Source: Stieleria neptunia
Lineage (GTDB): Bacteria; Planctomycetota; Planctomycetia; Pirellulales; Pirellulaceae
Assembly (NCBI RefSeq): GCF_007754155.1
Contig: NZ_CP037423.1
Location: forward strand, 558,001-622,000
Direction: 5' to 3'
Length of the DNA stretch: 64,000 nt
Below the pieces are notes generated by a model. That model was given only the letters and a program-made list of their open reading frames with translations. It was not told the DNA's origin and did not search any database. Made by a program: the position numbers and the translations under genes. How positions within the stretch are numbered: position 1 is the stretch's first letter; each line of letters begins with the position of its first letter. This document shows, one piece after another, positions 23,247-25,029 of the stretch.

Positions 23247-23450
23247 CGATCGACGAAGGTATGACCAGAGACTCTACGGTGCTCTGCCACTGAGCTACGG
23301 CCCGGGAATCGTCTTGAGACCCGAGTCTTGAGATGTGAGCAAATCACTCAGGTCTCATGACTCACTGCTCAGGACTCAAGTTGGGCCGGTGGGACTCGAA
23401 CCCACGACACCCGGCTCCTGAAGCATGTACTCCGAATCGGCAGTCGATCG
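23247..23450 (-). ncRNA. Y RNA-like gene Y1 (tRNA-mimic body)
   Basis: The 5' arm CGATCGACTGCCGATTCGG and the 3' arm CTTCGTCGATCG close the RNA by GTCGATCG/CGATCGAC pairing. The body is a permuted tRNA shape: a T-arm (GTGGG TTCGAGT CCCAC), then acceptor strand CGGCCC, a long cap, then the partner strand GGGCCG and a D-arm GCTCAGTGGCAGAGC. The usual anticodon arm is replaced by the end-closing stem. The cap holds a 70-base hairpin of GAG-ending 7-mers (23311-23380). This layout is that described for bacterial YrlA RNAs. Confidence 0.72.
23311..23380. repeat. Inverted 7-mer array (xxxxGAG family) inside Y1
   Basis: Units read TCTTGAG ACCCGAG TCTTGAG ATGTGAG, a short gap, then CTCAGGT CTCATGA CTCACTG CTCAGGA CTCAAGT. 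Left and right arrays pair imperfectly into a long hairpin. It sits where the acceptor stem of the tRNA-like body of Y1 would be capped. Confidence 0.7.
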
Positions 23451-23460
23451 TGTGCGTTTG

Positions 23461-23826
23461 TTATCTCCGTTTCTTCTTCAAAGACTTTCGCAGCCTTTTC
23501 CACACCACGCGGCCACTGTCCGGGTCCAGCCGGACGAGTTGGTTTTGGCGAGTGTCGAAAGTTTTCGTGCCGCCTTTCGGTCGCTTGGTGTAAACGAACG
23601 GAAGGCAAACGGCGACGACTTTGAACGGCTGACCCGCGTCACTGGGCATGTAACGGAGTCGAACCGGTTCGTCCGCTGGAAGGGTGCCGCCGGAGCAGCC
23701 CCACAGGAACGAAGGCAATTCGACGATCTCGTTCAAGACCGTGACGTAGTCTCCTTGTTTGATGTCTTCTCCGGCGACTCGTGCTGCCACGGTCGTCTGG
23801 TAGTTGGTTTCAGTTGTGGTTTCCAT
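23461..23826 (-). CDS. Small conserved basic protein encoded within the Y RNA array
   Basis: 121 residues, no domain I can name with certainty. It begins METTTETNYQTTVAARVAGED, then GDYVTVLNEIVELPSFLWGC, then VRLRYMPSDAG ... VVAVCLPFVYTKRPKGGT, and ends in a strongly basic tail, RLRKSLKKKRR. The beta-rich middle and basic end would suit nucleic acid binding, but this is inference. It lies between Y2 and Y1 on the same strand, its stop 11 bases from the Y1 5' arm, so it is probably co-transcribed with the Y RNAs. A deleted scrap of it is fused to a dead sulfatase at 6467-6539. Confidence 0.8.
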   Translation of the reverse strand: METTTETNYQTTVAARVAGEDIKQGDYVTVLNEIVELPSFLWGCSGGTLPADEPVRLRYMPSDAGQPFKVVAVCLPFVYTKRPKGGTKTFDTRQNQLVRLDPDSGRVVWKRLRKSLKKKRR

Positions 23827-23967
23827 GGTTCATATCGCTTAATGAAAGTAAGTTCTGTGTGTGCAAAGATTCTTCCACGGACGCCCGATTACTCGGCGTC
23901 CGAGTTCGTAATGACGAAGAACTGAAATTGCACACGCATGGTAACTCTCACGAGCGATTTGAAAAAC

Positions 23968-24097
23968 GGCTGACGAAGTGGTGTGTCAGAGATAAGCTCT
24001 CCCAATTGAGCTACGGTTCGGCTAGGCCGGGCCGACGGGACTCGAACCCGCATCCTTCGATTAACAGTCGATGTACTCCAACTCGGCAGTCAGTCGT
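23968..24097 (-). ncRNA. Y RNA-like gene Y2 (tRNA-mimic body)
   Basis: 5' arm CGACTGACTGCCGAGTTGG, 3' arm ACCACTTCGTCAGCCG; the closing stem has one mismatch (A opposite C). The body has T-arm GCGGG TTCGAGT CCCGT, acceptor strands CGGCCCG and CGAACCG (five of seven pairs), D-arm GCTCAATTGGGAGAGC, and a hairpin CGA CTGTTAA TCG where a variable arm would be. That 7-base loop looks like an Asn anticodon loop. Confidence 0.7.
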
Positions 24098-24173
24098 GTA
24101 TTGGTAGTGGAATAGGCTGCTGGCATGTCTTGAAATGACACGCAGGATGCCCATCCCACAAAGTCTGTTTAAA

Positions 24174-24306
24174 ACAATTGACGAGGTGATTGATCAGAGA
24201 GGATTCGTCGCTCTCCCAACTGAGCTACAACACCGCTTGGCAATGTTGGCGGGAATCGAACCCGCGACCTACGAGGTGGATGTACTCCGATACGGCAGTC
24301 AATTGT
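24174..24306 (-). ncRNA. Y RNA-like gene Y3 (tRNA-mimic body)
   Basis: Closing stem ACAATTGAC with GTCAATTGT, nine perfect pairs. The 5' arm continues TGCCGTATCGGAGTACAT and the 3' arm is TCTCTGATCAATCACCTC. The body has T-arm GCGGG TTCGATT CCCGC, acceptor strand CAACATT pairing with GGTGTTG seven bases later, and D-arm GCTCAGTTGGGAGAGC. It is the clearest case that the tRNA halves are in permuted order. Confidence 0.76.
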
Positions 24307-24314
24307 GTATTGGT

Positions 24315-24433
24315 GGCGACGAGGTGGTCGTTCAGAAGCATCAGATAGACGACCAGCGATGCTGGGCGGGGCTCGAACCCGCTTCTCGTGCAAGCACGTG
24401 TCTTAATCCATGTATTCCAAACTGGCAGTCGCC
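24315..24433 (-). ncRNA. Y RNA-like gene Y4 (T-arm plus long variable-type arm)
   Basis: Closing stem GGCGAC with GTCGCC. The 5' arm is GACTGCCAGTTTGGAATACAT. The body has a hairpin CGTGC TT GCACG like a class II variable arm, then T-arm GCGGG TTCGAGC CCCGC, then CCAGC ATC GCTGG as a short capped acceptor-like stem. The D-arm is not convincing. Confidence 0.65.
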
Positions 24434-24451
24434 TTGTTCGGCTATTCAAAA

Positions 24452-24594
24452 ACAACTGACGAAGTGTTGACCAGAGACTTCTTTCGCGTGTCTTCCAATT
24501 GCACCACTACGATCGCGGATCGTAGGCGGGATTCGAACCCGCACAGTCTTTCGACCACGAAAACCCTATGTACTCCAAATCGGCAGTCAGTTGT
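24452..24594 (-). ncRNA. Y RNA-like gene Y5 (tRNA-mimic body)
   Basis: Closing stem ACAACTGAC with GTCAGTTGT, nine perfect pairs. The body has GTC GAAA GAC as a small variable-type hairpin, T-arm GCGGG TTCGAAT CCCGC, acceptor strand CTACGAT pairing perfectly with ATCGTAG after a short cap, and a D-arm GTGCAATTGGAAGACAC. Eight bases separate it from Y6. Confidence 0.75.
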
Positions 24595-24602
24595 ATTTTG
24601 TT

Positions 24603-24713
24603 GGCGACGAAGTTGTGTTCAGAGGTTGGCTCCCAAGTGAGCCCGCGCCGGTGTTTTGAAAAAGTCGGCGCGACGGGAATCGAACTCGCATGTACTCCAA
24701 ATCGGCAGTCGCC
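24603..24713 (-). ncRNA. Y RNA-like gene Y6 (minimal tRNA mimic)
   Basis: Closing stem GGCGAC with GTCGCC. The 5' arm GACTGCCGATTTGGAGTACAT runs straight into a T-arm (GCGAG TTCGATT CCCGT). Acceptor strand CGCGCCG pairs perfectly with CGGCGCG across a 15-base cap, then a D-arm GGCTCACTTGGGAGCC. There is no anticodon or variable arm at all, so it cannot be a working tRNA, but it fits a YrlA-type Y RNA. Confidence 0.78.
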
Positions 24714-24724
24714 GTGTTTTGTAA

Positions 24725-24943
24725 AAGCTCGACGAAGTGGTCGTCGAGATCGCTGTTCGCTTCCATCACTTTCGCGATTAGAAGCAAACGCCGCTCTTAC
24801 CAACCGTTTTCACGGTCGGCAGTGGGCACACACGATTGCATTTACGAGAGATGGAAACCGTGTTCACTACCTTCGGTCGCCCGAAGGATCGCTACCTTAG
24901 GACCGTCATAGTTACGATGTAATCCCAACAGGCAGTCGAGCTT
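24725..24943 (-). ncRNA. Y RNA-like gene Y7 with 23S rRNA-like segment
   Basis: Closing stem AAGCTCGAC with GTCGAGCTT, nine perfect pairs; 3' arm GACCACTTCGTCGAG. Instead of a tRNA-like body it carries, at 24889-24916, 28 bases that match the universal 23S rRNA stretch around the I-CeuI site (CGTAACTATGACGGTCC then TAAGGTAGCGA) with one difference from E. coli. A strong hairpin follows (CCTTCGG GCGA CCGAAGG), then further stems (ACCGT GAAA ACGGT). At 219 bases it is the longest unit. Confidence 0.72.
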
Positions 24944-24956
24944 TGTATTGGTTTGC

Positions 24957-25029
24957 GACGGATCGACGAGGTAACAGCTCAGATGGGACACATTTTCAAG
25001 ATGTAATCCGAGCCTGCAGTCGATTCGTC
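24957..25029 (-). ncRNA. Y RNA-like gene Y8 (short, hairpin body)
   Basis: Closing stem ATCGAC with GTCGAT. The 5' arm GACTGCAGGCTCGGATTACAT and 3' arm GTTACCTCGTCGAT keep the shared motifs, but the body is only a small hairpin (ACAT CTTGAAA ATGT) plus about 15 bases, without T-arm or acceptor stem. It is the first unit after tRNA-Cys. Confidence 0.6.

Follow-up and report, generated by a model that had tools for sequence, protein, structure and literature searches.

Bacterial Y RNAs, which occur with Ro60-family proteins, are known as mimics of tRNA. The stem of the Salmonella RNA YrlA (RF02553; Chen et al. 2014, via PMC8394870 and PMC7790460) binds the protein Rsr, and its tRNA-like domain, in which T-arm, acceptor and D-arm stand in permuted order, is modified by DusA and TruB (PMC8394870). 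YrlB (RF02565), short and without a tRNA module, belongs to the Salmonella rsr-yrlBA-rtcBA operon (PMC7790460). The degradation machine RYPER of Deinococcus radiodurans consists of Rsr, Y RNA and PNPase (PMC8394870, PMC6340977); Y RNA blocks the access of misfolded RNA to Ro60, a similar mechanism being stated for Rsr (PMC6340977), and titles cited in PMC4726728 link Rsr to the maturation of 23S rRNA and to rRNA decay in starvation. We analysed a stretch of 64,000 nt (hereafter the window, G000:C1:558001-622000) of the 11 Mb single-contig genome of Stieleria neptunia, in which eight Y RNA-like units lie on the minus strand, from position 25029 down to 23247, upstream of a Ro60 (TROVE) gene. 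Five carry a permuted tRNA-like module, one a T-arm only, one is a short YrlB-like RNA, and one, Y7, holds a piece of 23S rRNA resembling helices 69 and 70 (R-type unit).

In 5' to 3' order on their strand the units are:
24957..25029, minus strand: Y8, short YrlB-like unit (RF02565 30.5 bits, E 0.0017; paired arms), 1 nt after a tRNA-Cys gene
24724..24944, minus strand: Y7, 23S rRNA-like (R-type) unit (own-genome search; 18-unit alignment; 118 bits with model R1, of which it is a training member)
24889..24914, minus strand: 23S helix 69/helix 70-like stretch within Y7 (25 of 26 nt shared with each of the two own 23S genes)
24603..24713, minus strand: Y6, tRNA-like with T-arm, acceptor and D-arm permuted (7/7 acceptor pairs; 67.7 bits with model R2, outside its training set)
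24452..24594, minus strand: Y5, tRNA-like (7/7 acceptor pairs; R2 82.8 bits, outside training)
24315..24433, minus strand: Y4, T-arm only (paired arms; T-arm found by eye; not among the de-permuted window units)
24174..24306, minus strand: Y3, tRNA-like (Rfam YrlA 40.5 bits, E 8e-7; R2 116 bits, training member)
23966..24097, minus strand: Y2, tRNA-like (Rfam YrlA 29.3 bits, E 0.0014; R2 100.5 bits, outside training)
23247..23450, minus strand: Y1, tRNA-like (Rfam YrlA 37.8 bits, E 4.7e-6; R2 106.4 bits, outside training)

Each unit runs from one half of a closing stem through a first arm, ACTGCN...GGANTACAT, an inner module and a second arm, YTCGT, to the other stem half. The arm pair, common to all eight, is similar to the Ro60-binding site known from other Y RNAs. 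The units share with YrlA the linkage to Ro60, similar closing-stem arm motifs and the permuted order of T-arm, acceptor and D-arm, but they score below the Rfam gathering threshold, their arms read GACTGCC/YTCGTC and the array combines several module types, one of them 23S-like. Y8 resembles YrlB in being short, in lacking a tRNA module and in keeping GGATTACAT, but directly follows tRNA-Cys. With the D. radiodurans system the locus has a Ro60-family protein and Y RNA in common, whereas the set here is a panel of different predicted Y RNAs, one of which copies a piece of 23S rRNA.

The preliminary description of this DNA had placed eight such units on the minus strand upstream of Ro60, with shared arm blocks, closing stems that change in a compensatory manner and gaps mostly of 8-18 bases, and in all of this it was borne out. 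All eight were found where it had put them, and the gaps between successive closing stems measure 12, 10, 8, 18, 8, 76 and 515 nt, five of the seven fitting the range given. The exact matches to the arm pattern GACTGCNNNNNNGGANTACAT listed for the genome number nine, six in this array and three in a second array of the same genome; two further exact matches are Y7 and Y8, both in the present array, and no exact match outside the two arrays was among those listed. The features by which bacterial Y RNAs are recognized, a nearby Ro60 gene and ends that pair into a closing stem next to conserved arm motifs, are both present. Covariation of the closing stem was assessed on 162 arm pairs picked by motif alone, with pairing not a criterion and Y2 included; on average 6.67 of 8 stem positions were paired, against 4.94 with shuffled partners (maximum 5.15 in 1000 shuffles). 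Within the window the two halves vary in concert, as in AATTGA/TCAATT, AACTGA/TCAGTT, GGCGA/TCGCC and ATCGA/TCGAT. In 273,549 nt, a scanner that does require pairing returned 179 sense-strand units and a single antisense one; the 179 were left unedited and comprise a few doubtful ones (e.g. two spanning more than 290 nt, one of them in locus L083), and some units, such as Y2, were missed. The 5' arm (CUGCC...GGA) is also partly complementary to a conserved 23S stretch, UCCUAAGGUAG, even in units devoid of a 23S-like module.

Predicted Y RNA arrays are a general feature of planctomycetes, and eight units stand at the upper end of the range seen. We surveyed 75 Ro60 loci, two from the S. neptunia genome and 73 from others, 54 of them with 4.5 kb of upstream sequence; among the named loci, those with closely related Ro60 genes belong to Pirellulales-type planctomycetes, for example Stieleria and Rhodopirellula. 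The 179 units fell in 45 of the 75 loci, and 41 loci held two to eight, so that the size of the window array, which had been thought exceptional, does not by itself set it apart among planctomycetes. Of 24 Ro60 loci found outside the class, 20 (43-48% identity) were fetched, in which the upstream scan gave one doubtful unit. The classic arm motifs GAATGC...GGANTACAT (at most two substitutions; a motif match only) occurred one to seven times each in 19 of these 20 loci and not in L069, beginning about 1.6 kb from where Ro60 starts, which places them directly behind the gene.

The permuted T-arm/acceptor/D-arm module was recognized in Y1, Y2, Y3, Y5 and Y6; the earlier statement that most units hold such a module stood for these five, with Y4 reduced to the T-arm, Y7 23S-like and Y8 YrlB-like. 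Y2 was assigned by models only, being absent from the de-permutation list at 6/7 acceptor pairs. The likeness to Rfam YrlA, also anticipated, was obtained for Y3 (E 8e-7), Y1 (4.7e-6) and Y2 (1.4e-3), Y6 (E 0.76) and Y5 (E 4.2) remaining at chance level. RNAalifold applied to 32 aligned tRNA-like units predicted the closing stem, a second stem, the T-arm and the acceptor stem, and 16 of the 24 pairs in the alignment show changes on both sides. A covariance model built from these 32 units, R2, detected Y1, Y2, Y5 and Y6, all outside its training set, at 67.7-106.4 bits, and in the own genome at E 1e-4 gave seven matches, all in the two arrays (eight candidates scored; 7-11 per genome in the whole-genome model searches). 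Across the phylum, 39 of 392 genomes reached at least 56 bits, 35 of which lie within the 39-genome Ro60 set (Fisher p 5e-41, with a cut picked after inspection of the list and with related genomes in the test). Outside that set, the units of G307 and G361 lie next to a TROVE gene, and no TROVE gene over the cut-off was found for the R2-positive G027 and G189; conversely, the Ro60 genomes G009, G191, G201 and G264 gave no R2 match at 56 bits. At E 1e-4, 85 genomes were matched, including 37 of the 39 with Ro60. The idea that each mimic is a copy of one isoacceptor was discarded, the halves matching several isotypes about equally, with Y5 leaning towards Leu (98 de-permuted units out of 180, some of which had been paired wrongly).

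Y7 has no tRNA-like module and instead holds TAACTATGACGGTCCTAAGGTAGCGA, identical at 25 of 26 positions to each of the two 23S genes in the genome, which Rfam confirmed as 23S. We take this stretch to comprise, in E. coli numbering, the helix 69 loop, its 3' strand and the lead into helix 70. A 23S-like module was aligned from 18 loci, where it usually forms the second unit behind a short one. In all 18, the best 23S match of the 5' part falls at one common site, and in every one of them 0 of 100 shuffles reached its score (the reference being the own 23S for nine units and that of a relative for the other nine). The R-type stretch of G181 is identical to its own 23S over 29 of 29 nt. The helix-69 variant, ACGG or AGGG/AGGA, is the same in the R-type unit and the own 23S in seven of nine genomes, the mismatches being the window, with ACGG in the unit and AGGG in its 23S, and JC639. 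In loci L086, L088, L089 and L115, from Stieleria/Rhodopirellula relatives, the R-type stem is made up of AGGAGC and either GCUCCU or GUUCUU, in place of ACGGUC and GGCCGU, and the three 23S sequences fetched among them read AGGG at the variant site.

In the 18-unit R-type alignment, 93.9% of the cells in the named pairs are paired (82.2% after shuffling) and 53 cells carry changes on both sides (16.4 after shuffling). One helix joins an ACGGUC strand by the 5' arm to a GGCCGU strand by the 3' arm (columns 35-40/156-161), with 84.9% of cells paired and both-side changes in three of the six pairs in this training alignment, as in AGGAGC/GCUCCU and ACGGUC/GAUCGU. Both strands stand in the reverse of their order in 23S helix 69, so that in most copies this stem would re-form in permuted order, the predicted Ro60-binding stem taking the place of its loop. 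The units are near-identical to 23S domain IV over 19-29 nt of helix 69-70, but are otherwise of unrelated sequence, and in most of them the stem would be permuted in this way; several have an intact helix-69 hairpin, CGUAACUAUGACG occurring instead or in addition in the window, JC639, D1_Bin_8 and G181. The other R-type hairpins covary, yet without a 23S match beyond chance. We rejected a copy of the whole H68-H71 junction, which a weak profile match had suggested, and retain helix 69-70 with the permuted stem: the middle and 3' parts mostly failed to exceed shuffles (at best 3 of 100 shuffles reaching the score, for the middle part in the window and JC639), and the linker to H69 was ordinary, ranking 282nd of 2835 windows.

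The covariance model R1, built on the 18 units, matched 14 of the 392 phylum genomes at E 1e-3 (seven candidates scored per genome), all within the 39-genome Ro60 set and none among the 353 others; 10 of the 14 reached at least 110 bits, one of which was new (G333). Among 248 genomes of the class, 25 were matched at E 1e-8. Of 16 units that at first appeared new, two were dropped because their genomes, G582 (= L116) and G583 (= L111), proved to be training genomes (100% identical stretches); among the 14 left, four are near-copies that share 97-99% identity with a training unit, the other ten being diverged from all of them. TROVE is encoded in all 14 genomes, and in 11 the unit precedes Ro60 in the same orientation, as read from the fetched stretch for nine and from the coordinates for G523 and G594. 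The 19-nt core has zero to three mismatches across the 14 units, which represent several families. In the ten diverged units, 55 of 60 closing-stem cells are paired (shuffled mean 43.3, maximum 49), and the permuted stem is paired in 73 of 79 cells across all 14 (shuffled mean 64.7, maximum 70), but in the ten diverged ones no more often than after shuffling. A genome of another class of the phylum, G220, gave a weak R1 match (31 bits), which holds GACGGACCTAAGGTAGC and lies in the array downstream of Ro60. On a contig of G333 (L194, G333:C13) other than that of Ro60, a YrlB-like and a 23S-like unit follow a degenerate tRNA-like sequence, a split array, and in L253 and L254 (G566 and G490) the 23S-like modules lack the usual arm motif and have ends resembling a diverged Y stem; these two RNAs are possibly a diverged or free-standing version. 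A location of R-type units in mobile elements was dismissed, as no match was found in viral contigs (searched with one exact pattern), phages or plasmids (searched with one unit).

From sequence we infer that the units are transcribed and bind Ro60. The array probably serves the Ro60 encoded downstream, its units acting as interchangeable lids or tethers that pose as tRNA or 23S rRNA, a role that would carry over from the Y RNAs of Deinococcus and Salmonella (PMC8394870, PMC6340977). Each Y RNA would bind Ro60 through its closing stem, and the module would either fill the docking site of a misfolded tRNA or 23S rRNA or be seized by enzymes acting on these RNAs, such as modification enzymes or PNPase-type nucleases, thereby bringing them to Ro60 or keeping them off. 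More tentatively, and short of calling it probable, we propose that Y7 is the first of a class of rRNA-mimic Y RNAs, in which 23S helix 69-70 is circularly permuted and its loop exchanged for the Ro60 stem, paralleling the tRNA mimics; that Ro60 would thus hold both decoding-centre partners, tRNA and helix 69; and that the genes for tRNA, Y RNA and Ro60, standing in a row, would form one unit of repair or turnover of translation RNAs. Were this true, a single interchangeable set of adaptors could enable Ro60 to police or recycle damaged tRNAs and 50S subunits. Mimicry of ribosomal RNA by a Y RNA is likely new: the literature searched, which did not cover key Y RNA papers, mentioned neither rRNA-like Y RNAs nor arrays of Y RNAs in planctomycetes, a weak negative. 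A sister RNA that copies one defined and functionally central stretch of 23S in dozens of Ro60-encoding genomes would extend the mimicry to translation RNAs in general; it suggests enzymes and factors acting on helix 69-70 as candidate partners, and the arrays offer a natural panel of Y RNA modules for studying how Ro60 chooses its clients.

Several results weigh against the account of the array as a set of Ro60 lids and tethers. Neither Rfam family reaches its gathering score (YrlA at best 40.5 of 69 bits; YrlB, for Y8, 30.5 of 97), and we therefore class the units as YrlA-like and not as members of Rfam YrlA. Judged by sequence, only about 20-30 nt can be assigned to 23S securely; the middle and 3' parts of the R module mostly do not rise above shuffles against 23S, and parts resembling H71, H72 or H68 gave no 23S match beyond chance in R-type units. 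The second array of the own genome has no R-type unit, and three of the 14 new units (G333, G490 and G566) lie away from Ro60. In the ten diverged units the permuted stem is paired in 50 of 55 cells, equal to shuffles because the 23S strand hardly varies, and the more tentative rRNA-mimic proposal is weakened by this lack of covariation. Finally, in the minimum-energy fold of Y7 the 5' arm pairs with the 23S-like stretch and not with the 3' arm.

That last fold also speaks for a switch hairpin, in which the stretch would be kept for pairing with its own 5' arm and its likeness to 23S would be a by-product; in each of the 18 units 9-16 of the 16 alternative pairs can form. Arms from units without the stretch, however, pair with it nearly as well (162 such arms average 12.2 of 16 and the 17 R-type arms 12.8; one-sided p = 0.053), so that the arms are hardly fitted to the stretch and the pairing hardly explains its conservation, and the stretch stays 23S-like while the opposing arm letters change; we consider the explanation improbable. 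Still harder to credit is an ordinary YrlA array in which Y7 had picked up a stray, functionless fragment of rDNA. The shortness of the 23S match and the ACGG variant in the window piece, where the own 23S has AGGG, would suit it, but the piece recurs in the 18 aligned units and, with few changes and across several families, in the 14 new ones, sits inside a module with covarying hairpins of its own and shares the host's helix-69 variant in seven of nine genomes, though the last could also result from descent.

A decoy function deserves more weight, though we hold it unlikely: bodies of tRNA and 23S stripped of the loops that are usually cut could act as competitive inhibitors of ribotoxins and other stress nucleases. 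The tRNA modules indeed have no anticodon arm, the helix-69 loop is missing from most R modules, a competitive-inhibitor role has been suggested for YrlA (PMC7790460), and tRNA arrays and an endonuclease V gene lie nearby; against this, no target nuclease was identified, endonuclease V is found near only 5 of the 75 Ro60 loci, window included, and at least four R units retain the helix-69 hairpin whole. That the tRNA-like units are permuted tRNA genes maturing into working tRNAs is scarcely conceivable, since they have no anticodon arm, their halves tie between several isotypes and their outer stems fit the Y RNA arm pattern, even if the T-half precedes the D-half, as it does in permuted tRNA genes. 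We retain as preferred the reading of the array as a set of interchangeable Ro60 adaptors. The original interpretation as a Y RNA array held in its linkage to Ro60, its tRNA-like modules and its compensatory stems; it overlooked that Y7 carries a 23S module, that the genome has a second array and that tRNA arrays stand with both.

The remaining features around the array are:
20957..22696, minus strand: Ro60 (TROVE + vWA), 579 aa, with PF05731 and PF25045 above cut-off
23100..23126, minus strand: remnant 5' arm of a broken ninth unit, GACTGCCGGAGTGGAGTACGA, with two mismatches
23461..23826, minus strand: 121-aa open reading frame (ORF) flanked by Y2 and Y1
25031..25102, minus strand: tRNA-Cys(gca) (ARAGORN; Rfam 49.6 bits), 1 nt upstream of Y8
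32109..37908, minus strand: co-oriented upstream array of 26 tRNA genes, all on the minus strand

The Ro60 gene starts 550 nt past the end of Y1 on the same strand. Its product scores 36.1 bits with PF05731 (cut-off 23) and 38.2 with PF25045 (cut-off 27.7), the best match among proteins of solved structure is Deinococcus Rsr (2nvo, E 5.7e-16), and at 75 bits, for a cut-off of 900, it is not the Rsr equivalog of the NCBIfam model. The second, paralogous module of the genome (L006, G000:C1:7775000-7792000) has the order tRNA array, tRNA-Cys, five-unit Y RNA array, Ro60, the last being 87% identical to the window Ro60 (7.78 Mb array). About half of the 88 tRNA matches of the genome lie in the two arrays beside the two Ro60 loci. 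Among the 75 loci, 18 have 10-32 tRNA genes in an upstream stretch of at most 10 kb, whereas the window's own tRNA array lies further off; many of the 75 stretches are short, and the 434 tRNA genes called in them all share the strand of Ro60. tRNA-Cys directly precedes the first short unit or arm motif in nine loci. Two observations speak for a possible co-transcription of the array, which the preliminary description took for one processed transcript: tRNA-Cys ends 1 nt before Y8, and no sigma-70-like site was found (shuffles: mean 1.8, sd 1.4), though planctomycete promoters may differ. Large co-oriented tRNA arrays were noted before the Ro60/Y arrays of L059, L060, L065, L068, L086, L089, L090, L093, L097, L100, L101, L114, L115, L122 and others, and many tRNAs of the window array score below the dispersed set of the genome; what goes with Ro60 is a second tRNA set that is nearly complete.

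The 121-aa ORF matched no domain in Pfam and NCBIfam. It has 218 relatives, those named among the 120 listed being hypothetical or uncharacterized proteins, and in 13 of the 75 loci, the window counted, it precedes Ro60 at a distance of no more than 1.2 kb; its product is a possible protein partner of the Ro60/Y RNA system. A complete unit with the arm sequence of the broken ninth unit stands directly before Ro60 in the second array. Genes of the 23S rRNA-intervening-sequence (four-helix bundle) family flank the window array on the plus strand (22687-23064 and 25167-25532); the inner one (22687-23064) may have broken the ninth unit, and relatives of these proteins are also close to several other Ro60 loci. 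The endonuclease V gene lies at 26121-26687.

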